64,000 bases of DNA. Source: Tatumella citrea (GTDB lineage: Bacteria; Pseudomonadota; Gammaproteobacteria; Enterobacterales; Enterobacteriaceae). Every line of letters begins with the position of its first letter. The first letter of the stretch is position 1. Positions 47,029 through 64,000 of this stretch are shown one piece after another. The notes beneath the pieces are model-generated. The model was not told the DNA's origin and searched no databases. It was given only the letters and a program-made list of their open reading frames with translations. A program made the translations under genes and the position numbers. The DNA lies in the NCBI RefSeq assembly GCF_002163585.1, contig NZ_CP015579.1:496001-560000 (forward strand). The letters are read 5' to 3'.

Positions 47029-47898
47029 TCAGGCACACCCGCGGGTAGCCAGGCCGATATGGTAAAGTGAAGTGGTGGCCGTGATGAACAACTCATTATT
47101 ATCCGGCCCGCCAAATGTGCAGTTGGAGACCCGCTCAGGAACCTCTATTTTCCCTGCGGTCTCGCCTTGTGGCGTAAACACGATAATGCCGTCTTCACAG
47201 CTGCAATAAATATTCCCGCTGTTATCGACACAAAAACCGTCCGGAATTCCGGGGCTGACTTCAGCAAACGTTTCTCCGGCACTGACCTGGTGACCATTAA
47301 CCTGATAACGACGCAGTTCGCGGCGGCCTTGTTGGGGGAAATCAATCACGGACATGTCCGCCACATACAGATACTTTTCGTCTGGTGAAAAGGCTAATCC
47401 GTTAGGGCGTTGAGCATCGCTGACTGCAATAGTGACCTGTGAAGTTTGCGGGTCAAAACAATAGACATAACAACCAATGACCTGACTTTCTGCATGATAA
47501 CCTTCTTCATCGCTGGTTATTCCATAAGGCGGGTCAGTGAACCAGATAGTGCCGTCTGACTTAACAACGACATCATTTGGCGAATTAAAACGTCTGCCTT
47601 CAATTTTATCGACCAGCAGTGTGACTGTGCCGTCGGTTTCTGTCCGGCTGATACCGCGACGCCCATGCTCACAGGTAATAATCCGCCCTTGCTGGTCACA
47701 CGCATTACCGTTGGCATAATTGGAGTGTGCCCGCCATACCCCGCAATTGCCGTTACGCTGCCAGTAAAACATGCGGTTACCTTTCACATCACTGAAAATA
47801 ACGGCATCACGACGGGCGTCCCATACCGGACCTTCTGCCCACAGTGCCGGAGAACAAAGTCGCTGCAACTGACTGTCAGCGTTCAGAATTTTATTCAT
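47029..47898 (-). CDS. SMP-30/gluconolactonase-family lactonase
   Basis: A 289-residue six-bladed beta-propeller hydrolase. The calcium-site glutamate lies in LWAEGPVWDARRD, followed by SPNDVVVKSDGTIWFTDPPYG, RPNGLAFSPDEKYLYVAD and GIPDGFCVDNSGNIYCS. Such enzymes open sugar-acid lactones. It overlaps the GPH symporter gene by four bases, so transport and lactone hydrolysis are coupled. With the ascorbate-type operon beside it, a sugar lactone is a reasonable guess. Confidence 0.87.
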   Translation of the reverse strand: MNKILNADSQLQRLCSPALWAEGPVWDARRDAVIFSDVKGNRMFYWQRNGNCGVWRAHSNYANGNACDQQGRIITCEHGRRGISRTETDGTVTLLVDKIEGRRFNSPNDVVVKSDGTIWFTDPPYGITSDEEGYHAESQVIGCYVYCFDPQTSQVTIAVSDAQRPNGLAFSPDEKYLYVADMSVIDFPQQGRRELRRYQVNGHQVSAGETFAEVSPGIPDGFCVDNSGNIYCSCEDGIIVFTPQGETAGKIEVPERVSNCTFGGPDNNELFITATTSLYHIGLATRGCA

Positions 47899-50359: not shown

Positions 50360-50518
50360 AATTACACCTGTTTATTCACAACTGTGGATGAAATACCCGG
50401 AACCGGATATATCGGCTCTGCAGACTTATTGTCTTCGGGAGGTTTTCATTATCGGCATAATGCTTCTATGATGATACGGGGGAAATTCATAACAACATCT
50501 TCGGGAAAGCAGAACGAG

Positions 50519-51430
50519 ATGATTAGGGCAACCATTGATCAATTGCTGATATTCGTAACTATCGCCGAATACGGAAGCCTGGCAGCGGCGGCGCGTGCGT
50601 TGCACAAAGCCCCTTCGGCGGTCACGTTTTCTATTCAGTCGCTGGAAGATCTGCTGGGGGTTACCCTGATCGATCGCAGTGGTTATCGTGCGGTTCTGAG
50701 CCAGGAGGCCAGAGAGCTGCTGCCGCGTGCCGAGCGACTGTTACGTGATCTGACGTTGCTGCAACAAAAGGCGCGTTCATTGTCTGCAGGGCTGGAGACT
50801 GAAATCGGCTTCTGTATTGATTCCATGTATCCGGTAGAGCGTATTTCAGGAACGCTGCAACGCTTTGCGGAAAAATATCTCGGAGTGAATCTGAATATTA
50901 TGGTCTCAACCAGCGCCAGGGCAGAGAAAATGATCCGCTCCGGAGAAGCTGCCGCGGGGTTGCTGGTGGATTTTACTTCCGCGGTTGAAGATGTTTTGTT
51001 GGTACCCGTTGAGCCAGTCAGATTAGTCGCGGTTTGTGCTCCACAGCACCCACTGGCACAGATGAACGGTCTGCTCAGTGCTGATGATGTGCGCGATTAT
51101 CGTCAGATAGTACTGAGTGATGGAGAAAGGGAATTTGAGGATTGGGGGCACCGTGGAGTGACTTCTTTAGATCTCTGGCGGGTGACCAATCTGCATACCA
51201 AAAAAGCCTTGCTGCTGGCAGGGTTGGGGTGGGGGAGCCTGCCGTTGCACATGGCCGAACAGGAAATCAGTGATGGCCGTTTATACCGCCTGGGGTTGGC
51301 TGAATGGGGGATCCGTTCCGGATCACCGGAATTGCCTGCGGTGCTGGCGCGTAAAAAAGACATCATTCCGGGAGAGGCAACCCAATGTTTACTGGAGCTG
51401 ATCACTGGTCTTCAGGTGACAATACCCTGA
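50519..51430 (+). CDS. LysR-family transcriptional regulator
   Basis: A 303-residue regulator. HTH at residues 4-60: IDQLLIFVTIAEYGSLAAAA and APSAVTFSIQSLEDLLGVTL. The frame is open from 50384, but homology starts at the ATG at 50519, preceded by only a weak GAG site, which also leaves a normal 160-bp divergent promoter region to the cupin gene. The effector domain carries GFCIDSMYPVERI and GLGWGSLPLHM segments as in many LysR proteins controlling oxidoreductases. Targets may be the cupin or the epimerase/FMN reductase pair. Confidence 0.82.
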   Translation: MIRATIDQLLIFVTIAEYGSLAAAARALHKAPSAVTFSIQSLEDLLGVTLIDRSGYRAVLSQEARELLPRAERLLRDLTLLQQKARSLSAGLETEIGFCIDSMYPVERISGTLQRFAEKYLGVNLNIMVSTSARAEKMIRSGEAAAGLLVDFTSAVEDVLLVPVEPVRLVAVCAPQHPLAQMNGLLSADDVRDYRQIVLSDGEREFEDWGHRGVTSLDLWRVTNLHTKKALLLAGLGWGSLPLHMAEQEISDGRLYRLGLAEWGIRSGSPELPAVLARKKDIIPGEATQCLLELITGLQVTIP

Positions 51431-51731
51431 GGTACTTTGCCGCGCGACCACCTGACACCTCTCACTATTTTATATAATCAGGCCGGAAGAGTTACAGTTA
51501 AAATATCTGCCACCGTTCTGTAATTTTAATAACATTTACCAGAGCAGGGTTATTTTATCAGGGATGAATTTATCGGGAAGATAATCTGGCATGTTGGTCA
51601 GGATTCTCTGAAAAAACGAAATAATAATATGTGCTATTTATTTTTCTGCACTGCGGGTAGCACCTTTTGTCTATTACTCATTTTTCTGATGATTCTACTG
51701 TTGCAGATCTACATCATCACGAGATTTTACT
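51431..51731. other. Intergenic region upstream of the epimerase gene
   Basis: A 301-bp AT-rich stretch that must carry the promoter of the 51732 gene. I see no copy of the GntR-type palindrome, no strong hairpin and no gene. Confidence 0.4.
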
Positions 51732-52643
51732 ATGCAGGGATCAAACCATGTACTGATTACCGGTATTACCGGTTATATCGGCGGGAGTGTTGCGCTGGCG
51801 TTCAGAGAGGCTGGTTATATCGTCTCCGGGACTTATCGCAAAGAGGAAGATAAACAGCGTATCAGTGCGGCAGGTATGACTCCGGTATTTTGTGATCTGA
51901 GTGCAGAAAACCTGCAATCCCTGACGGAGGCTATGCGCCGTAACGATATTATTATTCACGCGGCGGAATGCGACAGTATTTCACTGGCTGCCTTGTTAAT
52001 CAGAGAGATGAAAGGCAGTGGTAAAACTCTGATTTATACGTCGGGTGCGGGGTATCTGGCGAATCACCGCCGTCATGCGGCGGTACAACAGGTATTTCAG
52101 GAAGATATTCCGGTACGGGCCACTGGTGTGTTCCCTGATCGTGTACGGATTAATACAGCGCTGTTACGGGCAGGTGCATTTGGGATACGCAGTATGGTGA
52201 TGGTACCCGCTATGGTTTATGGCGAAGGACGTTTTATTAACTGTCAAAGCAAACAACTTCCGGCGTTGACGCTTGCTGCCGAAGAGCTGAGCTGCGGGGT
52301 GTATATTGGTGATGGCTTAAACAGCTGGAGCAATGTGCATGTCGATGATCTGGCTGCTTTATATCTGCTGGCGGCAGAAAAAGCAGCTAACGGTACGCTC
52401 TGGTATGTAGAAAACGGCTGTTGTTCGTTTCGCCAGATCGGTGAGGCCCTGCATCAGCGGCTGGGATTTGCCGGCCATGCCACCTCAATGCCACTTCAGG
52501 CAGCAACTGCACATTGGGGATCGCTGATGGCTAAAATTGCGCTAAGCTCAGATTGCAGAATTTCCGGGGACAAAGCCCGGAAAATGCTGGGATGGGAGCC
52601 TCGCTACCACGACATGACGGCTTATATCGCGGAACAACCGTAA
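51732..52643 (+). CDS. NAD(P)-dependent epimerase/dehydratase-like (extended/atypical SDR)
   Basis: A 303-residue Rossmann protein. The cofactor loop is TGITGYIGGSVALAF near residues 9-23. A GAGYL and FPDRVRINTALLRAGAFG stretch replaces the classic YxxxK region, so the normal Tyr-Lys catalytic pair is not evident and it may act as a binding protein or atypical reductase. VHVDDLAALYLLAAEKA is characteristic of the family. It starts about 20 bp ahead of the FMN reductase gene, probably in one transcript. Confidence 0.78.
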   Translation: MQGSNHVLITGITGYIGGSVALAFREAGYIVSGTYRKEEDKQRISAAGMTPVFCDLSAENLQSLTEAMRRNDIIIHAAECDSISLAALLIREMKGSGKTLIYTSGAGYLANHRRHAAVQQVFQEDIPVRATGVFPDRVRINTALLRAGAFGIRSMVMVPAMVYGEGRFINCQSKQLPALTLAAEELSCGVYIGDGLNSWSNVHVDDLAALYLLAAEKAANGTLWYVENGCCSFRQIGEALHQRLGFAGHATSMPLQAATAHWGSLMAKIALSSDCRISGDKARKMLGWEPRYHDMTAYIAEQP

Positions 52644-52662
52644 ATCACTCAGGAACATGATA

Positions 52663-53211
52663 ATGGAAAAGAAATTACATTTTGTCACCTTGACCGGCAG
52701 CCTGCGTGGCGCCTCATTTAATGCCGTTATTGCCCGTACTCTGCCGGAACTGGCGCCGGAAAATGTGACAATCTCTGCCCTGGGCTCACCGGGCGATTTT
52801 CCGCATTATAATGCCGATGTTCAGCAGGAAGGTTTTCCTGCCGCAGTGGTGGCAATGGCCGAGGCGATACAGCAGGCCGACGGTTTGATTATTGTGACGC
52901 CGGAATATAACTACTCCGTGCCCGGAGTGTTGAAGAATGCACTGGACTGGTTGTCCCGTTATAGCCCGCAACCGCTGGCCGGCAAACCAGTGTTAATCGA
53001 AACTGCCTCGCCGGGAGCGATTGGTGGTGCACGCGCGCAATACCATCTGCGACAGATTCTGGTGTTCTTTGATGCTCAGGTACTGAATAAACCAGAAGCG
53101 ATGATCGGCAAAGTGACAGATAAAGTAACTAATGGTGTACTAAGCGATCAGGATACCCGCGATTTCCTGACGCGTCAGTTGGCGGCGTTTACGCAGTTTA
53201 GCCAGAAGTAA
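52663..53211 (+). CDS. NADPH-dependent FMN reductase (ChrR/YieF-like)
   Basis: A 182-residue flavodoxin-fold reductase. The FMN phosphate loop is GSLRGASFNAVIART and the flavin ring loop TPEYNYSVPGVLKNALDWLS, both textbook for the family. I start at 52663 (AGGA eight bases upstream) rather than the ATG two codons earlier. It could supply reduced FMN to a luciferase-like monooxygenase, or reduce quinones and metals as YieF does. Confidence 0.87.
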   Translation: MEKKLHFVTLTGSLRGASFNAVIARTLPELAPENVTISALGSPGDFPHYNADVQQEGFPAAVVAMAEAIQQADGLIIVTPEYNYSVPGVLKNALDWLSRYSPQPLAGKPVLIETASPGAIGGARAQYHLRQILVFFDAQVLNKPEAMIGKVTDKVTNGVLSDQDTRDFLTRQLAAFTQFSQK

Positions 53212-53250: not shown

Positions 53251-53702
53251 TGGCTACCAGCAAACGATTGTCTGACTATTACCATCTCTGCTTTAAGTGG
53301 TTAATATCAGCTCTACACCTTTATAATTTCGGCTTCCGTCCGGTTAAACCCTGATTCCTGTCACTTCCTCCCAACCCGTATTCAGCCCCGGCGCCTAATG
53401 CCAGTCCCTGCCCGTTATCTGCACTGCATTGCCCCTGAAAAGAGCCCCGTAATCCTGATATTGAACAATACCAGCAATACTTCCGTAGCAAATCTCTGAA
53501 CTGAATAATTTAACTCCATGATTTTAATGTTTTTTATTGAATCATCAGTATTTCGTATGTGTGTAAAATGAACGATTGTTGACAATTTTTTGTTGCTGAT
53601 GAATGATGTCTCTACTTTGAAATTGTTGACAATCTACCATTTGTTGATGATTTTAATTTAGTAATCAACTGATATTAATGCTTTTTTATCTGGAGGTTTG
53701 CT
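53251..53702 (+). promoter_or_regulatory. Promoter region of the monooxygenase operon with two GntR-type operators
   Basis: Two identical palindromes ATTGTTGACAAT lie at 53575-53586 and 53622-53633, 47 bp centre to centre. Each fits the FadR-family consensus TNGTNNACNA and contains a TTGACA that can serve as -35 element, so binding would compete with RNA polymerase. GGAGG precedes the GTG start at 53703. The remaining 300 bp to the left show no gene. Confidence 0.7.
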
Positions 53703-54209
53703 GTGGAAGTGAGTGTTAAAGATGATTTCAGGCATTGTATGCGCCGGCTGGCATCCACGGTATGTGTGATTACCTGCCAGTATCAGGGAGTTCGCTACGG
53801 AATCACTGCCACAGCTGTGACTTCTCTGTGTTTTGATCCGGTCTCTGTTCTGGCGTGTATTAACACGAATTCAAGCCTGTTGCAGCCACTGCTGTCGGCA
53901 AAAAAATACTGCATTAATTTGCTGAGCCAGCAGCACGCCCCGATATCACAGCGCTTTAGTTCACCGGCAGATGCCCACCAACGTTTCACTCTTGGCGCCT
54001 GGCAGGAAGATGAAGAGGGCATTCCTTATCTTGCTGATGCCCAGGCCAACCTGTTTTGTTCAATGGACCAGACATTGCCCTATGCAACACATCAGGTGGT
54101 GATTGGCAGGGTCAGCCAGTGTCTGTTCAGCGACACCGTTTCACCACTGCTTTATCAGAATGGCGCGTATGCCATTGCAGCCCCGCTGCCTGAACATTTT
54201 GTGAGTTAA
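53703..54209 (+). CDS. Flavin reductase-domain protein (HpaC-like)
   Basis: A 168-residue FMN-binding split-barrel reductase. It starts with GTG, six bases after GGAGG. The core reads MRRLASTVCVITCQYQGVRY, GITATAVTSLCFDPVSVLAC, and SAKKYCINLLSQQHAPISQRF, the pattern of two-component monooxygenase reductases such as HpaC and RutF. It lies 23 bp before the luciferase-like monooxygenase gene and very likely supplies it with reduced flavin. First gene of an eight-gene operon. Confidence 0.87.
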   Translation: MEVSVKDDFRHCMRRLASTVCVITCQYQGVRYGITATAVTSLCFDPVSVLACINTNSSLLQPLLSAKKYCINLLSQQHAPISQRFSSPADAHQRFTLGAWQEDEEGIPYLADAQANLFCSMDQTLPYATHQVVIGRVSQCLFSDTVSPLLYQNGAYAIAAPLPEHFVS

Positions 54210-54232
54210 TCTAATTTTTACCGGAGAATACA

Positions 54233-55306
54233 ATGCAACTCGGATTATTTAGCCTGATGACCCTGCGTGACCACCCGGAAGGGGTGAAAGGGGTAATGCG
54301 CGATACTCAAACGATGGTTCAGACCGCCGAAGAAGTAGGATTTGATATTGCCTGGTTCGCCGAGCACCACTTTGCGAACTATTCCAGCAGCCCTTCACCG
54401 TTGCTGATGGCAGCAAATGCTGCTGGCTGGACCTCTAAAATTAAACTGGCTCCCGGGGTACTGGTACTGCCGCTCTATCATCCGCTTCGTCTGGCTCAGG
54501 AAATTGCGGCGGTTGATGCCATGACCGATGGTCGGCTGGTGGTCGGGATCGGTACTGGCTATCAGCAGTATGAATTTGACCGTTATAACGTGGCTCTGGA
54601 TAAAAAGGTCGAAATCTTCCTGGAATACTGGGACGTGATTGAGAAAGCGCTGACGGAAGGAGAAGTGGAATATCAGGGCGAATTTTTATCCATCCCGAAA
54701 ACGACTTTTGCAATACAGTCTTATCAGAAACCGTTGCCACAGCTGTTTGTGACCTCTTCTCATCCTAAATTACTGAGCCGGTTTAAAAAGTTTCAGGCTG
54801 TGCCTTTTATTGCTGCCAGTACCCTGGGATCGCCTGTATTGTATAAAATGGCCGATACCCTGAATCAGGGATGGGAGAGCATTGGGGAAAATCCTGTCAC
54901 CAAACCTCTGGCGATTATGCAATATGTGCATGTGACTGACAGCTACAAAGATACCCGCGAAGCGGCGGAGCGCGCGCGTTACGTCGGTCGGATGGCCCAT
55001 CACCTTCGCAAAGCCGAATTACCGCTGGATGAAAATGGATATATTCGTAACGAAGGTTTTGATGGCGAATATTCGCTTGACCAGTTTGCCAATAATATGG
55101 TGGTCGGGGATGCTCACCTGGTGGCAGAGAAGATGATTGCGGATATTAAACGTCTGAATCCGGCGAATTATACCTGTAACTTCCAGTTTGGTTGTATGCC
55201 ATTAGAGAAAGCCAGGAAATCATTATATAAATTTAGCAAGGAAGTGATTCCTCTTATTGAAAAGGAACTTGGTCCGATAGCTGATATTGGATGCCAGCTG
55301 AAGTGA
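54233..55306 (+). CDS. Luciferase-like FMN-dependent monooxygenase
   Basis: A 357-residue LLM-class enzyme. Diagnostic parts are EEVGFDIAWFAEHHF, KLAPGVLVLPLYHPLRLAQE, and DGRLVVGIGTGYQQYEFDRY. It would insert oxygen into the substrate imported by the neighbouring ABC transporters, using flavin from the gene before it. GGAG is seven bases before the ATG. The family contains RutA-like, SsuD-like and NTA-type enzymes; I cannot place it more finely. It differs clearly from the LLM protein at 13878. Confidence 0.87.
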   Translation: MQLGLFSLMTLRDHPEGVKGVMRDTQTMVQTAEEVGFDIAWFAEHHFANYSSSPSPLLMAANAAGWTSKIKLAPGVLVLPLYHPLRLAQEIAAVDAMTDGRLVVGIGTGYQQYEFDRYNVALDKKVEIFLEYWDVIEKALTEGEVEYQGEFLSIPKTTFAIQSYQKPLPQLFVTSSHPKLLSRFKKFQAVPFIAASTLGSPVLYKMADTLNQGWESIGENPVTKPLAIMQYVHVTDSYKDTREAAERARYVGRMAHHLRKAELPLDENGYIRNEGFDGEYSLDQFANNMVVGDAHLVAEKMIADIKRLNPANYTCNFQFGCMPLEKARKSLYKFSKEVIPLIEKELGPIADIGCQLK

Positions 55307-55387
55307 ATTAATACCCATTGATTAGAAAATAAAGTGTCCGGAGTTTATTAAATAAGATAAAGGTATTTAAACCATCGCGGGGTGATT

Positions 55388-56215
55388 ATGTTTAAAAAAA
55401 GTATTTTACCAGCAGCTTTAATTCTGTTTTCGGGCGTAGTGACTATGCATTCAGCGATGGCTGAATCCACTCTGGACACTGTGATTAAGAATAAACAATT
55501 ACGTTGTGCGGTGGTATTAGATTCACCACCGTCCGGGTATATGACGCCGGATAATAAACCGGATGGTTATGACGTCGCCTATTGTGATGATATGGCGAAA
55601 TCTTTGGGTGTGAAGCCGGTTATTGTTCAGACTCCGGCCTCAGACCGTATTCCGGCATTAGTTTCCAAACGGGTTGATATCGTGGTGGGGTCCACCACGG
55701 TCACGCCTGAAAGGGCAATGACCGTTGCTTTTACACAGCCGTATGTGAACTACACCATAACCGTAATGACCCGTAAAGGTACCGGAATTACCAGTTACGA
55801 ACAGCTTAAAGGCAAGAAACTTGGGGCTGTTGTCGGCTCTACCTTCGAGCAACTGTTTACTAAAGAGTTACAGGGGCGTTGGAAAAATACCGGAACCACA
55901 TACACCGGTTTTGCCAGTGATAATGAAACTTTTATGGCGCTGCAACAGGGGAAAATTGATGCCATTCTACAGGCCTCGTCTGTCTACAACACCCTGGCAA
56001 AAAGCGGGCAGTTTCCGACCTTTGTAGCCGCCGGTCTGGCACCGTTAAGTGATATGGATGGGCTGGCAGTGAGACGTGGTGATCCGGATTTCCTCAACTG
56101 GGCGAAGGTGTTTGTCTGGCATCAGGTAGTCAGCGGTCGCTACGCTGAACTTTACAGAAAATATATGGGTGACGGCCCGATTCCTCCTCTTAATGTTCCG
56201 GGCGTGGATTTTTAA
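55388..56215 (+). CDS. ABC transporter substrate-binding protein, family 3 (polar amino acid type)
   Basis: A 275-residue periplasmic binding protein with a signal peptide ending AMAES. The family-3 pattern is clear: VIKNKQLRCAVVLDSPPSGY, GYDVAYCDDMAKSLGVKP, DRIPALVSKRVDIVVGSTTV, TPERAMTVAFTQPY. Aromatic and charged ligand-pocket positions suggest a small amino-acid-like or amine ligand. The start is the ATG at 55388 with GGGGTG upstream. It opens the transport section of the operon. Confidence 0.88.
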   Translation: MFKKSILPAALILFSGVVTMHSAMAESTLDTVIKNKQLRCAVVLDSPPSGYMTPDNKPDGYDVAYCDDMAKSLGVKPVIVQTPASDRIPALVSKRVDIVVGSTTVTPERAMTVAFTQPYVNYTITVMTRKGTGITSYEQLKGKKLGAVVGSTFEQLFTKELQGRWKNTGTTYTGFASDNETFMALQQGKIDAILQASSVYNTLAKSGQFPTFVAAGLAPLSDMDGLAVRRGDPDFLNWAKVFVWHQVVSGRYAELYRKYMGDGPIPPLNVPGVDF

Positions 56216-56254
56216 TCAGCGCGTTGTGATCCTCTGACTTATTAGGTATCGCTG

Positions 56255-56917
56255 ATGCAGGATTATCAATTCTACTGGTCAATCGTGTTTAACGCATGGC
56301 CAGAATTATTATCGGGTGCCTGGGTCACGCTGCAGATTACAGTTTTATCTGTATTAGCAGGCATGGCTATTGCCATGCCTATCTCTGTCGCGCGGCAATC
56401 AGGTAAAGGTTTTTATTATACGCTGGCTGGTGGCTGGATAGAGTTATCCAGAAATACACCGGTACTATTTCAGCTTTACCTGGTTTATTTCGGCCTGGGT
56501 GCTATCGGAATTAATATATCGAGTTATTTAGCCGTACTGTTTGCGATCGCATTTAATAATGCAGGGTATCTGGCGGAAATATTTCGTGGTGGATTAAATT
56601 CTGTTCCTAAGCAACAAATGGCGACAGCCAGATCTCTGGGGATGAATAAATTTCAGGCGTTCCGGCATGTTATTTTTCCTCAGGTATTTAAGCTGATATT
56701 TCCGTCATTCGTCACCCAGGCCGTCTGGGCCATGCTGAATACCTCTTTAGGAATGCTGGTTGGTCTGCGGGAACTGTCGGGGGCGACGCAATATGCGCAG
56801 TCAGTCTCTTACCGGACTTTTGAGTTCTTTATTGTCACTGCCGGAATTTATTACGTGATTGCCAAAATTATTCAGTTTGGCGCACTGGCAACATTCCGTC
56901 TGATGTATCGGAGGTAA
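56255..56917 (+). CDS. Amino-acid-type ABC transporter permease
   Basis: A 220-residue HisM/GlnP-type permease with about five helices: LLSGAWVTLQITVLSVLAGM at the start, RNTPVLFQLYLVYFGLG, and the EAA loop MATARSLGMNKFQAFRHVIF. It pairs with the next permease, three bases downstream. Confidence 0.9.
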   Translation: MQDYQFYWSIVFNAWPELLSGAWVTLQITVLSVLAGMAIAMPISVARQSGKGFYYTLAGGWIELSRNTPVLFQLYLVYFGLGAIGINISSYLAVLFAIAFNNAGYLAEIFRGGLNSVPKQQMATARSLGMNKFQAFRHVIFPQVFKLIFPSFVTQAVWAMLNTSLGMLVGLRELSGATQYAQSVSYRTFEFFIVTAGIYYVIAKIIQFGALATFRLMYRR

Positions 56918-56919
56918 CA

Positions 56920-57576
56920 ATGCAATTTGTTCTCGGTTATCAGGGACTGCAATGGTCAGACAGCCGTTATTTGCTGGATGGGGCATTAAATACCCTGGCT
57001 ATGGCAGCGACTTCCGGAATTGCAGGAACATTACTGGGAATCCCTCTGGGATGGGCCCGGGCTTCATCGATAACGTTTCAGATTATCAGTGCGCCGGTGA
57101 TCGATATTTTTCGTAGTGTTCCGATGATTATCACTCTGATTGTTCTGAACAGCTTTTTCTCACTGATCGGTATGCCATTGTCGCCTTATCTGTTGGGTAG
57201 CCTGGCACTCGGTGTCTGGATGGCTTCGGTAACTTCTGAGGTGGCTCGTGCAGGGTTAAGTGCTGTGCCACCGACCTTCCGACGCGGGGCTCGTTCTCTC
57301 GGGATGAACTACTGGCAGGAGCTTTATCACATCTCGCTGCCACTGATGTTCCGTTATGGCCTGAGTGCGTGGATTGGTTTGTTACTCAGCCTGATTAAAG
57401 ACAGTGCTCTGGCCGGAGTTGTTGGTTACATGGAATTTATGCATGCCACCCAGACGTTAATCACCCGGACTCATGAGACCTGGGTACTTCTGATGGGAAC
57501 CGGGCTGTTCTATTTCATTATCTGTTATCCGGTTTCACGGTATAGCCGTTATCTGGAAAAAAAGGTGGCGATATGA
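56920..57576 (+). CDS. Amino-acid-type ABC transporter permease, second subunit
   Basis: A 218-residue permease of the same family: LDGALNTLAMAATSGIAGTL, FRSVPMIITLIVLNSFFSL, EAA loop (FRRGARSLGMNYWQELYHI). The end overlaps the ATPase start by four bases. Confidence 0.9.
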   Translation: MQFVLGYQGLQWSDSRYLLDGALNTLAMAATSGIAGTLLGIPLGWARASSITFQIISAPVIDIFRSVPMIITLIVLNSFFSLIGMPLSPYLLGSLALGVWMASVTSEVARAGLSAVPPTFRRGARSLGMNYWQELYHISLPLMFRYGLSAWIGLLLSLIKDSALAGVVGYMEFMHATQTLITRTHETWVLLMGTGLFYFIICYPVSRYSRYLEKKVAI

Positions 57577-58313
57577 TTGAAATTAAAGGGGTTAAAAAAA
57601 CATTTGGCAACGTTAACGTGCTGAAAGGTATTGATTTAAGCATCGATAAAGGAGAGCTGGTTTGTCTGATTGGCGCCAGTGGATCAGGAAAATCGACCCT
57701 GCTGCAGTGTATTAACGGGCTGGAGGCTATTCAACAAGGCGACATCGTTGTTGATGGCATCAGTGTTCATGCGGCAGATACCAATATCAATCACCTGCGC
57801 CGAAAACTGGGGATTGTTTTTCAGCAATACAATGCGTTTCCCCATCTGAATGCTATCGAAAACGTTGCTCTGGCGCTGCGGGTGGTAGCAAAGAGAGGCC
57901 GTAAAGAGGCGTTACATCTGGCGCAAAGACACCTTGAACATGTAGGCCTGGGCGAAAAGGCGAAGATGATGCCTTCCCATCTTTCCGGTGGTCAGTTACA
58001 GCGTCTGGCGATTGCCAGGGCTTTGGCAATGGAACCGCAATATATGTTGTTTGATGAGGTGACTTCAGCGCTGGACCCGGAACTGGTGGGTGAAGTGCTG
58101 GAAACCATGCGCCTGCTGAAATCCGAAGGCATGACCATGATTGTTGTAACCCACGATATTAATTTTGTTCGCGAATCTGCTGACCGTGTTGCCTTCCTGC
58201 ATCAGGGACTGGTCTGTGAAATTGGCAGTGCAGAGCAGGTGATTGATCACCCGCAGCAGGAACAAACACGTAAGTTTATGCGGCGGGAAATGCGTACCGG
58301 CCAGGCTGCCTGA
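57573..58313 (+). CDS. Amino-acid-type ABC transporter ATPase
   Basis: A 246-residue GlnQ/HisP-like ATPase: Walker A GASGSGKST near 33-41, signature LSGGQLQR, Walker B MLFDEVTSALDPELVGEVL. It completes the importer encoded by 55388-57576. Confidence 0.93.
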   Translation: MIEIKGVKKTFGNVNVLKGIDLSIDKGELVCLIGASGSGKSTLLQCINGLEAIQQGDIVVDGISVHAADTNINHLRRKLGIVFQQYNAFPHLNAIENVALALRVVAKRGRKEALHLAQRHLEHVGLGEKAKMMPSHLSGGQLQRLAIARALAMEPQYMLFDEVTSALDPELVGEVLETMRLLKSEGMTMIVVTHDINFVRESADRVAFLHQGLVCEIGSAEQVIDHPQQEQTRKFMRREMRTGQAA

Positions 58314-58350
58314 ATCCTGTTTATGACCACAACTACGGAAAACAATAACC

Positions 58351-59112
58351 ATGATGATGTTTAAACTTGAGGGTAAAACTGCACTGATTACCGGTGCGGC
58401 AAGCGGTATCGGTTTAGAGGCTGCAAGAATGATGGCCAGAGCCGGAGCAACCGTTGCCATTAACTATTTACCGGACGACCCGCGCGGTGAACAGGCAATT
58501 AGCGATTTGCGTAGCGAAGGTCTGAAGGTGATTGCTGCTCCCGGCGATGTGTCAAAGCCGGAACAGGCGGCAGAAATGGTTGAAAAGGCGGTCAGCGAAC
58601 TGGGCCATCTGGATCTACTGGTGAACAACGCCGGTACGCCGGGAGTGACCAAACCTATCCCCGTCAAAGATCTCGATTCCGTCAGTGAAGAACTGTGGAG
58701 CACTCTGCTGAACGTTAACCTGATGAGCGTATTTCGTTGTTCCAGGGCCGCAGCTGCCAGCCTGGCAGCCAGTGGCGGGGCGATTGTTAATACCGCTTCT
58801 ATCGCCGGCTTCGGTTCCATTGCCAGTACGGTTGCTTACAGCGCGTCCAAAGCCGCAGTGATTAACCTGACCAGTAATCTGGCCCATGCTTTAGCCCCGG
58901 AAGTGCGGGTAAATGCGGTGGCTCCGGGCTCAGTAGAAAGTTCCTGGGCTATCGAATGGTCAGAAGAACGTCGTCAATCCACGATTGCCGCCACTCCTTT
59001 GCAACGCTGGTGCACCCCGAATGATGTTGCAGAACTTATCGTCTATCTGGGTTTTGCCGGCAGCATGATCACGGGACAAACCGTGATTATTGATGGTGGC
59101 ATCTCTCTCTGA
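58351..59112 (+). CDS. Short-chain dehydrogenase/reductase
   Basis: A 253-residue classical SDR. TGAASGIG near 13-20, NNAG near 90-93, Ser (NTASIAGFGS), Tyr-Lys (YSASKAAVINL) and the closing GFAGSMITGQTVIIDGG. Oxidises or reduces a hydroxy/keto group with NAD(P). Three adjacent ATG codons (58351, 58354, 58357) make the exact start uncertain. Same strand and 38 bp after the ATPase, so part of the operon. Confidence 0.9.
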   Translation: MMMFKLEGKTALITGAASGIGLEAARMMARAGATVAINYLPDDPRGEQAISDLRSEGLKVIAAPGDVSKPEQAAEMVEKAVSELGHLDLLVNNAGTPGVTKPIPVKDLDSVSEELWSTLLNVNLMSVFRCSRAAAASLAASGGAIVNTASIAGFGSIASTVAYSASKAAVINLTSNLAHALAPEVRVNAVAPGSVESSWAIEWSEERRQSTIAATPLQRWCTPNDVAELIVYLGFAGSMITGQTVIIDGGISL

Positions 59113-59145
59113 ACCTCCGCCTTTTAATCCGTTAAATCAGGAAAA

Positions 59146-59574
59146 ATGATGATCGAAGAAATTATTAAAGTGAAATCCGGCAGCATCCTTGAAGATAAAG
59201 AAAGCTATTCCCGGGTATTGGTACTGGGCAAATGGATTTTTATGTCACTGACTGCCGGTCGTGATTATAAGACCCGGGCGATGCCGGATACTGCAGTTGC
59301 TCAGGCTGAGCAGGCTTTTCGTAATGTTGAAGGGGCACTGACATCGGTCGGGGCAACTCTGGCGGACGTGGTTCGTTCACGGGTGTTTATTCCGAATCAG
59401 AGTGATGTGAAAGAAGTGATGGCATTTATCGGTGAAAAATTCCGTGGAATTGATCCTGCGAGTTGCGTGACCTGTTCACCGTTAGGCGGCCCGGAATATC
59501 TGTTTGAAATTGAGATAACGGCCTGGCGTGGTGCGTCTAAACTGCCTCAGAAATACCTGAATATCTCATTATAA
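59146..59574 (+). CDS. RidA-family (YjgF/YER057c) enamine/imine deaminase
   Basis: A 142-residue RidA-fold protein. The catalytic Arg is in VVRSRVFIP near residue 86, and the end holds PLGGPEYLFEIEITAW. RidA proteins hydrolyse reactive enamines or imines to ketones, releasing ammonia; RutC in the pyrimidine pathway is a relative. Last gene of the operon, 34 bp after the SDR. AGGA suits the second ATG (59149) better than the first. It supports the view that the pathway generates a nitrogen-containing unsaturated product. Confidence 0.88.
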   Translation: MMIEEIIKVKSGSILEDKESYSRVLVLGKWIFMSLTAGRDYKTRAMPDTAVAQAEQAFRNVEGALTSVGATLADVVRSRVFIPNQSDVKEVMAFIGEKFRGIDPASCVTCSPLGGPEYLFEIEITAWRGASKLPQKYLNISL

Positions 59575-59630: not shown

Positions 59631-60329
59631 CTACTGTTCAAGCAACTGCATATAGCGTGATACTGCCTTAGCAAATTTATCCTTCCAAATCTCCAGCGCT
59701 TTATCAATATCCCTGTTTTTAATTGCGTCGAGCAGTCCGACAACATAATGCATGGCGTCAGATTCACGCTCTGTGTAGACAATCCTGGTCAGATTATTAA
59801 ATCGTTGAACTTCAACGGTAGTTTCAGAGAAGTAGCGAGCGCAGCGTTCCAGACCGCTGGCAGCTACCAGAGTTTCCTGGAACTGCAGGTCGTTAGCGAT
59901 GGTGGCTTGCTGGTTTTCCTGAGTAGCCAGTTTAAGCGCAGAGGAGGCCATTTTTTCCAGGGTCCTGAGCGTAGCCGCATCGGGCAGGTTAGGGTGAGTC
60001 TGAATCTGTTTTAGTGCCAGTTCACCCAGTGCTGAACGTATGGCATAGACTTCAAGAATACTGGAGGGGTCGAGTTTCGCAACCACGGCTCCCCGGTTCG
60101 GTCTGACCTCAACCAACCCTTCCTGGCTCAGACGACGTAACGCCTCACGCACCGGGTGTCTTGATAAATTGAGTTCATCCGTCAGGCTTTTTTCGGTCAA
60201 ACGGTCACCCGGCTGAAAAATGCCACGAACGATGGCTTCGCGAATCTGGTCAGCAGCGTGATCTGAACTGGCAATATTATTTACAGGTACCAGGCGAGCC
60301 CGGCTGACAGGGTCATTTTTGACAGGCAT
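59631..60329 (-). CDS. GntR-family regulator, FadR/FCD type
   Basis: A 232-residue regulator: winged HTH at residues 20-85 (REAIVRGIFQPGDRLTEKSL, LSRHPVREALRRLSQEGLVE, RPNRGAVVA) and a helical FCD effector domain (residues 95-230) whose FCD metal residues are consistent with ATIANDLQFQETLV and the later MHYVVGLLDAI. It is convergent with the monooxygenase operon and divergent-like from nothing; its own upstream region has an operator-like palindrome. It is the obvious controller of the operons on both sides. Confidence 0.9.
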   Translation of the reverse strand: MPVKNDPVSRARLVPVNNIASSDHAADQIREAIVRGIFQPGDRLTEKSLTDELNLSRHPVREALRRLSQEGLVEVRPNRGAVVAKLDPSSILEVYAIRSALGELALKQIQTHPNLPDAATLRTLEKMASSALKLATQENQQATIANDLQFQETLVAASGLERCARYFSETTVEVQRFNNLTRIVYTERESDAMHYVVGLLDAIKNRDIDKALEIWKDKFAKAVSRYMQLLEQ

Positions 60330-60382: not shown

Positions 60383-60417
60383 ATTATCTAAGGTAGAAAT
60401 AGATGATAGTCAACAAT
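60383..60417 (-). promoter_or_regulatory. Promoter and operator of the GntR gene
   Basis: ATAGTCAACAAT at 60406-60417 (ATTGTTGACTAT on the minus strand) differs by one base from the palindromes at 53575 and 53622. The minus-strand TTGACT inside it and GATAAT at 60383-60388 form a -35/-10 pair with 19-bp spacing. It suggests autoregulation. Confidence 0.6.
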
Positions 60418-60496: not shown

Positions 60497-61234
60497 TTAG
60501 TGCCAGGCAACAGTTTTCACAAAATCCCGGGTTCTTTGTACCTGGGGATCACCGAAAATCTGTTCCGGAGGACCAAATTCAATAATCTTTCCCTGATCCA
60601 TCATTGCTACTTTATGCGAAACTTCGCGGACAAAGCTCATTTCGTGAGAGACCAGAATCATCGTCATGCCTTCACGGGAAAGCTGCCGGACGGTATTCAG
60701 TACCTCACCAACTAATTCCGGATCCAGCGCCGAGGTTACTTCATCGAGCAGCAATATTTTGGGTTTTAATGCCAGCGCACGGCTGATAGCAACCCGCTGT
60801 TGTTGGCCTCCTGACAGATTGGCCGGATAAGCATCGGCCTTATGTTGCATCCCGACTTTGGCCAGTAAACTCATCGCTTCTTCTTTAACCTGACTGGCGT
60901 GACGTTTTTGTACTTTTACCGGGGTAACCATCACGTTCTCCAGCACGCTCATGTTCTGGAAAAGATTGTACTGCTGGAACACAATGGCGACCTTCTCGCG
61001 AAATTCACGCACGCTCTGTGCTGAGTCATAATCCAGTTCATTATTTTCGACCCGCACCGCGCCGGCAAGAGGACGGGTCAGACCCATAATCACTCTGAGC
61101 AGGGTACTTTTTCCTGACCCGGAACCGCCGATCAGGCTGACTATCTCTCCGGGCTTAATTGTCAGGTTAATACCATCTAATACGGTGTGCTCACCGTAAG
61201 AACACTTCAGACCAACAATCTCTAACTGTGACAT
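60497..61234 (-). CDS. Amino-acid-type ABC transporter ATPase (second importer)
   Basis: A 245-residue GlnQ-like ATPase: GGSGSGKST Walker A, LSGGQQQR signature, ILLLDEVTSALDPELVGEVL Walker B. The start at 61234 has AGGAG seven bases upstream; the frame opens nine codons earlier. Last gene of the second importer operon. Confidence 0.93.
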   Translation of the reverse strand: MSQLEIVGLKCSYGEHTVLDGINLTIKPGEIVSLIGGSGSGKSTLLRVIMGLTRPLAGAVRVENNELDYDSAQSVREFREKVAIVFQQYNLFQNMSVLENVMVTPVKVQKRHASQVKEEAMSLLAKVGMQHKADAYPANLSGGQQQRVAISRALALKPKILLLDEVTSALDPELVGEVLNTVRQLSREGMTMILVSHEMSFVREVSHKVAMMDQGKIIEFGPPEQIFGDPQVQRTRDFVKTVAWH

Positions 61235-61270
61235 AACCGGGCTCCTGTAAATAGTTTGCAATGACCGATA

Positions 61271-62017
61271 TCAGGGGGGAGTGAGCGTTGACAGTGGGTT
61301 GCTCTGTGTTTCACCTGATTTACTGGTATCCCGGGCAGTTTTCCCGGCGGCCAGTCGTTGTTCCAGACGTTTACCTAACCGGCTCAGCGGGTAAGACATA
61401 ACGAAATAGATCAGCAATATCAGCCCATAGATCAGAAACGATGAATATCCGCGGCTGATAAGAATTTTGGCGGAAAACGTGAGTTCCACGACACCGAGTT
61501 GTGAGGCAAGGGCGGTATCTTTAATAAATGACACCATAAAGCTGAATGCCGGAGGGATCACAACCCGCAATGCCTGCGGTAGCATCACCAACTGAATCAG
61601 TTGACGGTGACTGAAGTTAAGGGTCTGAGCCGCTTCAATCTGAGTTTTAGGCACAGATTCGAAACCGGTACGGAAAATTTCAGCCATATAGGCACTGGCG
61701 ATCAGACAGACGGCAATCAGACCGATGAAGTAGAAGGAGAGATCGATTCCGATCCCCTGGAAAATAAAAAAGATTAAAAACAGTGTCACCAAAAATGGAA
61801 TCCGGCGCAGCAGTTCAACCAGTACGATGGTAACCACCCGCAGCGGCAGAAAAACCACGTGCCTGGTCTGGCGCAGGCAGGCAATAATAAAGCCAGCGAT
61901 TAATCCCGCGGAACACCCAATGGCTGAAAGAGTCAGGGTGTTCCATGCCGCCTTCAGGATAAATTCCAGGGTAAAGGCATTGCATAAGTTAATGATTTGC
62001 TGAGAAAGGGTGAGCAT
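61271..62017 (-). CDS. Amino-acid-type ABC transporter permease (second importer)
   Basis: A 248-residue permease: AAWNTLTLSAIGCSAGLIAG, LRRIPFLVTLFLIFFIFQG, EAA loop (IEAAQTLNFSHRQLIQLVML). Its start overlaps the stop of the other permease (TAATG at 62015-62019). The 25 C-terminal residues form a polar tail absent from the first importer. Confidence 0.9.
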   Translation of the reverse strand: MLTLSQQIINLCNAFTLEFILKAAWNTLTLSAIGCSAGLIAGFIIACLRQTRHVVFLPLRVVTIVLVELLRRIPFLVTLFLIFFIFQGIGIDLSFYFIGLIAVCLIASAYMAEIFRTGFESVPKTQIEAAQTLNFSHRQLIQLVMLPQALRVVIPPAFSFMVSFIKDTALASQLGVVELTFSAKILISRGYSSFLIYGLILLIYFVMSYPLSRLGKRLEQRLAAGKTARDTSKSGETQSNPLSTLTPP

Positions 62018-62691
62018 TAAATAAACCTCGCTCTGACACGGAAACACCAGTAACCAACACCGTACAACATCGCGCTGGCAATAAAGGTCAGGATGACGTA
62101 CATCCCGGCGGCCACCGAAAACGCCTCAATACTGCGGAAGGTGGTTGAGCTGATATCGATAACGGCGCCGGTTAATTCATTGACGCCAAACAGACCACCG
62201 ATAGAGCTACCCAGTAATATCCAGATAAAAAAGTTCGACAGTACCGGATAGATGGTTTTCGCAATATGCGGCAGGGTGACATAGCGGAAACTCTGCCATG
62301 CGGAAAGATTCAGTGTCTGTGCCGCTTCCAGCTCGGTTTTGCTGACAGAGATCAGCCCGCTGCGCATAATATCGGTCAGGTAGGCACCGGCATTCAGAGA
62401 CAGGCCGGTTAATACGGCGGTCAGGGGGGAAAGAACAATGCCAAAATCGGGCAGTCCATAAAACAACACGAAAATCTGAATTAACGATGGCGTATTGGTG
62501 AAGAAAATCACATAACCCCGGACTAATTTTTTTACCCCGGATCTTGCATGCTGCTCTGCCAGAGCACCCAACAGTCCGATGACGCACCCAATCCAGAATG
62601 AAATAAATGCGACAACAAGCGTAATGGCAGCTCCGGTAAGTAGTTCATTCCAGTGTTGCAGTACCTCACCAAACTGAAAGGTGTAATGCAT
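62017..62691 (-). CDS. Amino-acid-type ABC transporter permease, first subunit (second importer)
   Basis: A 224-residue permease: ELLTGAAITLVVAFISFWIG, FFTNTPSLIQIFVLFYGLP, EAA loop (LEAAQTLNLSAWQSFRYVTL). Follows the binding protein gene by 66 bp. Confidence 0.9.
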   Translation of the reverse strand: MHYTFQFGEVLQHWNELLTGAAITLVVAFISFWIGCVIGLLGALAEQHARSGVKKLVRGYVIFFTNTPSLIQIFVLFYGLPDFGIVLSPLTAVLTGLSLNAGAYLTDIMRSGLISVSKTELEAAQTLNLSAWQSFRYVTLPHIAKTIYPVLSNFFIWILLGSSIGGLFGVNELTGAVIDISSTTFRSIEAFSVAAGMYVILTFIASAMLYGVGYWCFRVRARFI

Positions 62692-62757
62692 AATTCTATT
62701 CTCCGAAAATTACCGTAATATCTGATTGTTCGGTTGATTAATAAGTTATTGTTTTAC

Positions 62758-63567
62758 TTAGAAGTAAGGGTTAGGGTTAATTTTCACTAACATCGGTGCT
62801 TTAAACCATTTCAGCCAGGTGTTGTTAACGAAACCACTGGTATGCATATCGTAGAGTGCAATATTCAGTACATCGCGTAACGGGGTATTGTTTTGCGCCA
62901 GTCCTACGGCATCGTAGGAGGTGTTAATGGCTTCCGGGAACACTTTCCATTTGACGTTCGGATAATTGGCAGTGAACGGCATATAGAATTCAATGTTTTC
63001 AACTAAAGCATCAGCACGCCCCTGGGCCAGCGCTCTGATGGTATCCGCCATGGTATCAACGTAGAGGATTTTGGCCTGCGGCAGGTTTTGTTTCAGGAAG
63101 TCAGCAGTCCAGACCCCACGAATCAGTACCAGCGTGTACTTAGAGTTATTCAGATCTTTCCAGCTTTTGATATTGAGCTTATCGGTGGTCAGCACGCCCA
63201 TGGATTCAGTATGTAACGGCACGGTGTAGCTGATTGATTTAGCTCGCTCGACAGTCCGGGTCAGACCACCTAACGAGATATCGATACGATCAGTGACCAG
63301 GAAAGGCACCCGTTGCGCAATTTCGGTCATGACAAAGTCGGCTTTGACGCCCAGTTCACTGGCTAATTTATTTCCGACATCAATATCGAAACCTTCCAGT
63401 TGATTGGTGGCACCAATAGAGGATTGCGGCGGAGAATTTGGTAATACACCAATCCGCAAGGTGCCGCTTTTAATTATATCATCCAGTGATCTGGCGTTAG
63501 CCGTCGGAATTACAGCTGAAACCGCTAACATACTCAGAATCATGCTACAGAAGAATTTTTTAAACAT
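62758..63567 (-). CDS. ABC transporter substrate-binding protein, family 3 (second importer)
   Basis: A 269-residue periplasmic protein with signal peptide ending PTANARS. Family-3 blocks are IIKSGTLRIGVLPNSPPQSS, GFDIDVGNKLASELGVKADF, RVPFLVTDRIDISLGGLTRT, and VERAKSISYTVPL. It resembles but is not identical to the binding protein at 55388, so the two importers may serve related ligands. First gene of the four-gene minus-strand operon, under a GntR-type operator 56 bp upstream. Confidence 0.88.
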   Translation of the reverse strand: MFKKFFCSMILSMLAVSAVIPTANARSLDDIIKSGTLRIGVLPNSPPQSSIGATNQLEGFDIDVGNKLASELGVKADFVMTEIAQRVPFLVTDRIDISLGGLTRTVERAKSISYTVPLHTESMGVLTTDKLNIKSWKDLNNSKYTLVLIRGVWTADFLKQNLPQAKILYVDTMADTIRALAQGRADALVENIEFYMPFTANYPNVKWKVFPEAINTSYDAVGLAQNNTPLRDVLNIALYDMHTSGFVNNTWLKWFKAPMLVKINPNPYF

Positions 63568-64000
63568 GGCAATATTTCTCTCTGGTCAATGACGGGAATT
63601 GTGAACTTAGAATGGATTGATGATTGTCAACAATCTGTCTTTTGTCAATCAGTAGTTTTTTTTGATATAAATCAATGTTATTTAAGTTAAATATCTTGAT
63701 TTATTGCTTGTTGTATAGCGTGGGGGTGAGCGACGGGCGTACAGTGTCTGGCTAATTCATTGATATATCCAAATTATACGGAATACTTATGTACGCATCG
63801 TTTTAATATTACGGTGAGTTTATTTGTAATTATTATTTAACTGCACTTATTTGGCGCACCATAAAAGATGTTTCTGCACCATTCAGAGGAGTTTTCTGTT
63901 ATTTGAATCATAAATTAACTATTAAATGAAATTAAATTGAGGGCGGCTATTTTTTATCAAATGGTAAAAACAGGCAGGGTAGTGGCAGATTTTTAAATCC
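63568..64000. promoter_or_regulatory. Upstream region of the second importer with GntR-type operator
   Basis: ATTGTCAACAAT at 63623-63634 is the inverted form of the palindromes before the monooxygenase operon. A weaker site TTTTGTCAATCA follows at 63640-63651. The remaining 350 bp to the window edge is AT-rich and shows no gene, hairpin or repeat I can support. Confidence 0.65.

Follow-up and report, generated by a model that had tools for sequence, protein, structure and literature searches.

The gene cluster and its distribution

A 64,000-nucleotide stretch of the Tatumella citrea genome (contig NZ_CP015579.1, positions 496,001 to 560,000; hereafter the window) carries at window positions 53703-59574 eight open reading frames (ORFs), all on the plus strand and separated by gaps of -4 to 75 bp, which encode a flavin reductase, a luciferase-like monooxygenase (LLM), the four components of an ATP-binding cassette (ABC) importer of the polar amino acid type, a short-chain dehydrogenase (SDR) and a Rid-family protein (Table 1). 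A preliminary description had read these genes as a self-contained unit for import, FMNH2 supply, oxygenation and dehydrogenation; the ORF map, Pfam and NCBIfam confirm all eight as named, and the set recurs in other genomes. That description left out a GntR regulator gene and, at 60497-63567, another full ABC importer of the polar amino acid type, both directly downstream in convergent orientation, as well as operator-like sites and a probable outlet through L-threonate; the unit should be widened to include the regulator, the second importer and the sites.

The second permease and the ATPase of the first importer were assigned by NCBIfam and the other families by Pfam. Among the NCBIfam matches listed, none of the eight proteins reaches an equivalog cut-off, the general permease model TIGR01726 alone being passed, and they consequently have no ready specific name. 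PF00296 and PF01613 genes occur in one cluster in 34 of the 35 orthologous loci defined below, which is the arrangement of a two-component, FMN-dependent LLM monooxygenase. Genes for a LysR regulator, an epimerase and an FMN_red protein upstream (50384-53211) were rejected as members of the unit, being found in 0 of the 35 relatives at the thresholds used.

GTDB genomes were scanned with a profile of the LLM, giving 468 relatives of which the best 80 were examined; 34 of these, chosen by LLM identity (at least 60%) and gene content, together with one plasmid locus make up the set of 35 loci, the LLM and its neighbour genes having served for both selection and counting. All eight genes and the GntR gene are complete in 31 of the 35, which answers the search for the same gene set in other genomes that had been proposed as a check, and the grouping is not due to chance. 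The hosts, bacteria of plant and soil type, belong to five groups (Enterobacterales, Hyphomicrobiales, Acetobacterales, Pseudomonas and Burkholderiaceae) and include Pantoea, Erwinia, Rhizobium, Mesorhizobium, Ancylobacter, Acidisoma, Gluconacetobacter, Pseudomonas and Caballeronia/Burkholderia. The remaining 46 of the best 80 LLM loci, mostly at 42-53% identity, have different neighbours and were excluded from all counts. ORF calling was simple (longest or homology-favoured), and starts and some small genes may be wrong.

The cluster is rare and scattered among genomes: 147 genomes taken as relatives gave three matches, the window's own genome, another at 83% and a looser one at 48%, and 394 Rhizobiaceae-type genomes again gave three, all of them already among the loci of the GTDB scan. 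Plasmid matches comprise three records, Rhizobium pRspNXC24a being close (75%) and two others lying at 34-35%, and the 5.9 kb cluster has no near match by megablast in E. coli genomes. In a phylogeny of the Rid proteins, Gluconacetobacter is placed among Erwiniaceae (weak support) and Acidisoma among Ancylobacter and Mesorhizobium (starred support), suggesting gene transfer. This sparse spread suggests a transferable trait tied to plants, deadwood or insects, habitats being judged solely by strain names. Aimed searches of the open-access literature, with most subscription papers outside their scope, listed a paper on paracetamol degradation but no description of the gene set, and did not show these known protein families in this arrangement.

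Table 1. Genes and operator-like sites of the widened unit in window coordinates, with best family matches and occurrence in the 35 orthologous loci
Feature	Position	Strand	Match or note
Flavin reductase (FMN reductase partner)	53703..54209	+	PF01613 Flavin_Reduct 120.8 bits; 34/35 loci
LLM-class (luciferase-like) monooxygenase	54233..55306	+	PF00296 Bac_luciferase 173.8 bits; 35/35 loci by selection
Family-3 substrate-binding protein, first importer	55382..56215	+	PF00497 SBP_bac_3 112.2 bits
ABC permease 1	56255..56917	+	BPD_transp_1 65.6 bits; TIGR01726 89.4 bits, cut-off 42.2
ABC permease 2	56920..57576	+	NCBIfam TIGR01726 43.8 bits, cut-off 42.2
ABC ATPase, GlnQ-like	57573..58313	+	NCBIfam GlnQ 286.2 bits, below cut-off 379; 69-86% identity in 34/35 loci
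SDR dehydrogenase	58351..59112	+	PF13561 adh_short_C2 180.5 bits; 34/35 loci
Rid-family protein without Arg105 of RidA	59146..59574	+	PF01042 Ribonuc_L-PSP 64.9 bits; 32/35 loci
GntR/FCD regulator, presumed to bind the palindrome	59631..60329	-	PF00392 73.4 bits, PF07729 39.6 bits; 35/35 loci
Second importer, ATPase	60497..61261	-	6/35 loci, Enterobacterales and Pseudomonas
Second importer, permease	61271..62047	-	6/35 loci
Second importer, permease	62017..62691	-	6/35 loci
Second importer, family-3 binding protein	62758..63567	-	NCBIfam TIGR01096 111.3 bits, below cut-off 256.35; 6/35 loci
Operator-like palindrome ATTGTTGACAAT	53575..53586	.	overlaps -35-like TTGACA at 53579
Second operator-like palindrome ATTGTTGACAAT	53622..53633	.	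about 70 bp before flavin reductase
Weaker operator-like site ATAGTCAACAAT	60406..60417	.	77 bp before GntR; 9/10 positions
Operator-like palindrome	63623..63634	.	56 bp before second binding protein

Related genes occur in other settings. Another LLM-type gene lies near window position 13956 (33% identity over 113 aa), the genome total being 13 LLM matches. Locus L059 (9170-18699) holds a different alpha-proteobacterial cluster, possibly a sister pathway, in which two LLM genes and several SDRs accompany a flavin reductase and an ABC importer of the polar amino acid type, while the Enterobacterales locus L069 (3069-14610) combines a 47%-identical LLM, an SDR and polar amino acid ABC parts with apparent aldehyde dehydrogenase, flavoprotein, Rieske and glutamine-synthetase-like proteins, these last named by eye.

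An operator-like site shared with L-threonate genes

Comparison of the promoters of both window operons yielded the palindrome ATTGTTGACAAT. The pattern ATTGTNNACAAT occurs in three exact copies in the window against 0.07 expected, two before the flavin reductase gene and one before that of the second binding protein, and the whole genome (4.49 Mb) has six exact sites, including these three, as opposed to one for a reversed-pattern control. In all 36 loci (the 35 and the window), the 350 bp before the first gene include a site that matches at least 9 of 10 positions; of 13889 stretches of 350 bp drawn at random from these loci, 264 (1.9%) do so, a contrast that is not a significance test because the loci are related. 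For this count, the flavin reductase served as first gene in 33 loci, where the best site precedes it by 61-121 bp, and the LLM in L026, L034 and L035, where the distance is 201-308 bp. The site also precedes the second binding protein gene in all six relatives that have it, at 9 or 10 of 10 positions, and both importers therefore probably belong to one regulon. From this co-conservation, we infer that the GntR regulator binds the palindrome.

In Enterobacterales and Pseudomonas loci, the palindrome encloses a -35-like TTGACA hexamer, which is missing from the forms in alpha- and beta-proteobacteria (ATTGTAGATAAT and ATTGTAGACAAT); the palindrome is therefore more than a promoter element. The promoter-like match at 53579 scores 10/12, in a scan that overall stays at chance level (8 found, shuffle mean 9.7). 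By eye, the other three exact genome sites have no clear pathway gene. An exact site at C1:599421 (locus L142, ATTGTTAACAAT) lies about 120 bp before an HbpS-like gene followed by gluconate-dehydrogenase-like genes (by eye), and could be either a further regulon member or a chance match; another, at C1:1942069 (L144), lies upstream of what by eye appears to be a family-3 binding protein gene.

Beyond the genes present in the window's unit, the relatives have recurrent neighbours, namely OtnK, OtnC, LtnD, an SMP-30 lactonase, further SDRs (one near XylB, at 336 bits against a cut-off of 400), an aldo-keto reductase and a 3-hydroxyacyl-CoA-dehydrogenase-like protein. NCBIfam cut-offs are exceeded by one protein each for OtnK (605 against 350 bits) and OtnC (317 against 250), both in L017, and for LtnD (440 against 350) in L027, whose OtnI-like protein was assigned by Pfam family (PF01261 TIM barrel, 143.5 bits). 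Leaving aside a TonB receptor, at least one of these extra enzymes is found nearby in 17 of 34 loci. In 6 of 34 genomes OtnK and the LLM are no more than 10 kb apart, against 0.14 expected from copy number and genome size; this estimate treats genomes as independent, and by lineage the cases number three or four. OtnK above cut-off occurs anywhere in 30 of 34 LLM genomes and in 75 of 199 Rhizobiaceae; since genome size and taxon confound this comparison, presence as such was set aside in favour of position and the common site.

Second copies of the site are found in 20 of 27 alpha- and beta-proteobacterial loci. They stand at the LtnD promoter in five loci (shared with OtnC in L023, L027, L032 and L042, and without OtnC in L036), before a further SDR, SDR2, in another five (L017, L018, L024, L025 and L033), before the SMP-30 lactonase in six (L019-L022, L089 and L095), before a binding protein in two Caballeronia loci (L041 and L073), and between the ATPase and a TonB receptor in two Gluconacetobacter loci (L034 and L035), the gene behind the site in L095, Caballeronia and Gluconacetobacter being read from coordinates. 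One more site, at position 8109 of L089, has no clear gene, and three Otn clusters elsewhere in such genomes (L098, L099 and L102) have no site. In these relatives, lactonase and L-threonate catabolism are probably under the same signal as the LLM operon, and since further copies precede L-threonate dehydrogenase, lactonase, SDR2, binding protein and TonB receptor, a four-carbon sugar acid is the probable form in which the carbon leaves. The catabolic steps from L-threonate to dihydroxyacetone phosphate (DHAP) are described in PMC12540250. One DNA site, conserved from Enterobacterales to Rhizobium, Gluconacetobacter and Caballeronia, thus links the L-threonate pathway with two importers, a monooxygenase and a Rid protein of a type considered incapable of hydrolysing imines.

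Several single loci add to this picture. The window itself has an SMP-30-type lactonase gene (47029-47898, minus strand), 47% identical to the Ancylobacter cluster copy; it is separated from the unit by about 6 kb of upstream sequence that contains other genes but no exact copy of the operator-like site. The TonB-dependent receptor genes (L034, 3614-6205; L035, 3688-6267) lie inside the Gluconacetobacter cluster and hint at a scarce or large substrate. One OtnK copy of the window's genome (L097, 3142-11520; C1:657141-665519) is accompanied by OtnC, a separate GntR and a polar ABC system (25-45% matches), and OtnK of Mesorhizobium loti (L042, 5553-6823) is in two pieces, perhaps through a frameshift.

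Rid, importer and monooxygenase in a proposed catabolic route

Arg105 of RidA is absent from all ten LLM-cluster Rids aligned, which have Ser in its place or, in Pseudomonas, His. According to the published accounts, this residue is essential for the activity of RidA (PMC4433059), and its counterpart Arg104 is needed for that of RutC (PMC8113886). The preliminary description had proposed the hydrolysis of an enamine or imine; because the required Arg is replaced, this claim is weakened in its RidA-type sense, while imine hydrolysis of a substrate without an alpha-carboxylate appears likely by genomic context.

This context comes from the nearest relatives of the Rid protein outside the cluster, collected from 398 Pseudomonadota genomes (E 1e-25) and 394 Rhizobiaceae-type genomes (E 1e-30). 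The matches outside LLM clusters form 27 regions, all 27 with an FAD oxidase (L132, not drawn, is counted) and 18 also with an OCD protein of the 'tyramine oxidase subunit B' type. The FAD oxidase of L120 belongs to the DAO family (Pfam), its nearest PDB entry being an L-amino acid deaminase, and the others were named by similarity to it (41-67% where compared). In the 26 readable rows of FAD-linked Rids, judged by eye against the E. coli alignment, the Arg position holds Arg in 5, Ser or Thr in 14 and other residues in 7; the Arg-bearing proteins are those of L123-L127, four of them beside hydantoinase-like genes (by eye). The 29 LLM-linked Rids included in the tree form one clade (support 100/99) nested among the FAD-oxidase-linked Rids. 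These results suggest that imines are what the subfamily acts on, that those met by members without the carboxylate-binding Arg have no alpha-carboxylate, and that LLM and flavin reductase have replaced the FAD oxidase beside Rid, which would make them the imine former of the cluster.

The genome that contains the window encodes a second Rid of the same subfamily, which forms a triad with an OCD protein and an FAD oxidase (L120, 7854-10779; C1:2511353-2514278) and has an AraC-type regulator and an amino acid permease nearby; the OCD protein of the triad matches the NCBI model 'tyramine oxidase subunit B' at 718.8 bits (cut-off 362).

The importer has the SBP_bac_3 protein, two HEQRo-type permeases and GlnQ-like ATPase of a polar amino acid ABC transporter, as the preliminary description had it. 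R111 and D193 of the binding protein are invariant in 18 of 18 aligned proteins, and correspond to the pair that usually holds the amino-acid head group in family-3 binding proteins. Together with the FAD oxidases beside the Rid relatives, these residues bear out the earlier view of a nitrogen-containing substrate. The structure model of the LLM (pLDDT 89) has bacterial luciferases as its nearest folds, followed further down by the type II Baeyer-Villiger enzyme 3,6-diketocamphane monooxygenase (rank 22), the riboflavin lyase RcaE (rank 23) and RutA (rank 24). RcaE uses FMN to release ribose from an N-ribityl chain (PMC12746152), and so sets a precedent for the FMN-dependent liberation of a sugar from a polyol chain bound to nitrogen.

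Taken together, these observations lead us to propose, with about equal chances of being right or wrong, a GntR-controlled catabolic regulon for the uptake and oxidative C-N cleavage of a polyol-bearing amine or N-substituted amino acid, the carbon of which would leave as a C4 sugar acid. One or two polar-amino-acid-type ABC importers would take up the small amine or N-substituted amino acid with its polyhydroxylated chain, and an NAD(P)H-fed flavin reductase would supply FMNH2 to the LLM, which would oxidise the carbon at the C-N bond to an imine or carbinolamine. Rid would then speed the hydrolysis of this product to a nitrogen part and a sugar-like aldehyde, SDR enzymes would set the oxidation state, and the carbon would exit as L-threonate or a close kin. 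In several alpha-proteobacteria, the C4 acid may be converted to DHAP by LtnD, an OtnI-like protein, OtnK and OtnC, under the same operator-like site. The substrate class, the attack at C-N and the order of steps follow from gene context and homology, and we guess that the substrate is an amine with several hydroxyl groups, or an N-substituted amino acid, that contains a C4 portion of L-threo configuration; the first candidates are plant compounds of the Amadori type or resembling iminosugars.

A more specific version, which we put forward tentatively and consider doubtful, is an undescribed route in which the FMNH2-dependent LLM replaced the FAD oxidase as partner of Rid and removes the nitrogen from what has been imported, either an amino acid joined to a sugar or a plant compound resembling an iminosugar; an L-threo C4 unit would remain, and one GntR regulon would lead it on through lactonase and L-threonate enzymes to DHAP.

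A number of observations weigh against oxidative C-N cleavage with a C4 outlet. Rids without the Arg had no deaminase activity in the published tests (PMC4433059, PMC8113886), and the program that built the Rid tree warned of long branches meeting between the LLM clade and two FAD-linked rows (L129 and one other). The unit is incomplete in L013 and L016, which are without Rid, and in L026, which is without flavin reductase (L037, also incomplete, is a 3.8 kb contig); the genome of L016 has a 57% identical Rid elsewhere, beside the FAD oxidase of L129. RcaE stands at 14% identity, behind the luciferases and next to Baeyer-Villiger enzymes, and the best 50 matches of the binding-protein fold search are mostly general amino-acid binders (SocA at ranks 45 and 48) and do not single out a sugar-amino-acid ligand. 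On the side of the outlet, 17 of 34 loci have no recurrent extra enzyme within the sequence examined, and OtnK linkage is confined to its 6 of 34 genomes. The linked Otn genes of L017 and L018 lie beside a LacI-type gene (by eye) and have no site; neither of two OtnK copies elsewhere in the window's genome is at any of its six exact sites; and LtnD might serve D-erythronate instead of L-threonate.

The chief rival for the LLM is Baeyer-Villiger chemistry, which we consider unlikely but the best placed of the alternatives. Here the SDR would turn an alcohol into a ketone, the LLM would insert oxygen beside it, and the ester would break to a C4 aldehyde or acid, as when an Amadori-type 1-amino-2-ketose is cut between C2 and C3 to a tetrose; nitrogen would be a bystander, with Rid clearing an enamine later. 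The luciferase-like fold, the rank of 3,6-diketocamphane monooxygenase and an EHH stretch that aligns with luciferase alpha, where its His is presumably catalytic, all speak for this chemistry, as does the SDR in 34 of 35 loci, and the C4 unit would arise directly, in keeping with the L-threonate genes and the site copies. It gives no account of the place of the Rid clade among Rids that accompany FAD oxidases, and fold likeness at about 20% identity leaves the chemistry unfixed.

It is somewhat less probable still that the C4-acid genes share the site only because they respond to the same signal from the habitat, which might be a plant compound (threonate formed from ascorbate, for instance), and are not downstream of the LLM. 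The nearness of OtnK in a minority of genomes and its unlinked position in the window's genome fit such a signal, but lactonase, SDR2, LtnD and TonB receptor carry the same site in different lineages, as would be expected of interchangeable parts of one pathway.

A Rut-like reaction, in which the LLM would cleave open a nitrogen heterocycle or an amide and give an enamine for Rid to deaminate, draws on the same three families (LLM, flavin reductase and Rid) and on the fold rank of RutA, but it is very improbable. Compared with E. coli, identities are 25% over 149 aa to RutA, 28% over 134 aa to RutF and 27% over 98 aa to RutC; the NCBIfam models score 97.5 bits against a cut-off of 254.75 for RutF and 20.1 against 169.1 for RutC, and that of RutA is not among the best 25 of 32 NCBIfam matches. 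RutB, RutD, RutE and RutG are not found among the unit's genes in the window, no dedicated whole-genome search having been made, which agrees with the earlier remark that no RutB, RutD or RutE type gene is seen. With the Arg of RutC also absent from the cluster Rid, low identities and low model scores rule out membership of the Rut pathway, and the parallel drawn in the preliminary description holds as analogy but not as orthology.

Many LLM enzymes cleave C-S or C-P bonds, yet scavenging of sulfur or phosphorus by an SsuD/CmoJ-like LLM from an amino-acid-like compound, with Rid removing 2-aminoacrylate, is equally remote: the binding protein and permeases do score with lysine/arginine/ornithine, cystine, ectoine and glutamine models (all below equivalog cut-offs), and the best NCBIfam match of GntR is the phosphonate regulator PhnR_burk (83 of 271.5 bits), but SsuD (36.7 bits) and SfnG (49.5 bits) lie far below cut-off, none of the nine conserved genes was recognised as a sulfur or phosphonate gene, the regulon is linked to a C4 sugar acid, and Rid lacks Arg105.

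For the proposed C-N-cleaving regulon, the conserved site and gene set yield a short, testable list of substrate features, and the cluster provides a handle on two questions, the role of Arg-less Rid proteins and where bacteria meet four-carbon sugar acids.

Comparison with known systems

The Rut uracil pathway of E. coli (rutABCDEFG) similarly unites an LLM monooxygenase, a flavin reductase and a Rid protein in one operon for a nitrogen compound. In contrast, the unit studied here has an ABC importer instead of a permease, a Rid of another lineage without the Arg, and a GntR regulator, while RutR is TetR-like. The OCD/Rid/FAD-oxidase triad (OCD of NF004848), for which the 'tyramine oxidase' label is NCBI's name, has a Rid of the same subfamily, mostly without Arg105, whereas the cluster has LLM, flavin reductase and SDR instead of FAD oxidase and OCD.

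On the side of uptake, the SocA (santhopine, i.e., deoxyfructosyl-glutamine) and opine systems of Agrobacterium also use family-3 binding proteins for sugar-amino-acid conjugates and are among the sequence and fold matches, although they are not the closest by either; degradation of santhopine and opines in Agrobacterium uses other enzymes. RcaE, the riboflavin monooxygenase of Microbacterium maritypicum, is likewise FMN-dependent, has a like fold and acts on a substrate with an N-bound polyol chain (PMC12746152). Besides its low identity, it differs in its longer chain of about 448 residues, and the substrate of the LLM studied here is presumably smaller and amino-acid-like. Finally, the L-threonate pathway (LtnD-OtnI-OtnK-OtnC) lies outside the core unit and is unlinked to it in the window's genome, but in some alpha-proteobacteria LtnD, OtnK and OtnC stand beside the cluster, and five LtnD promoters carry the same site.

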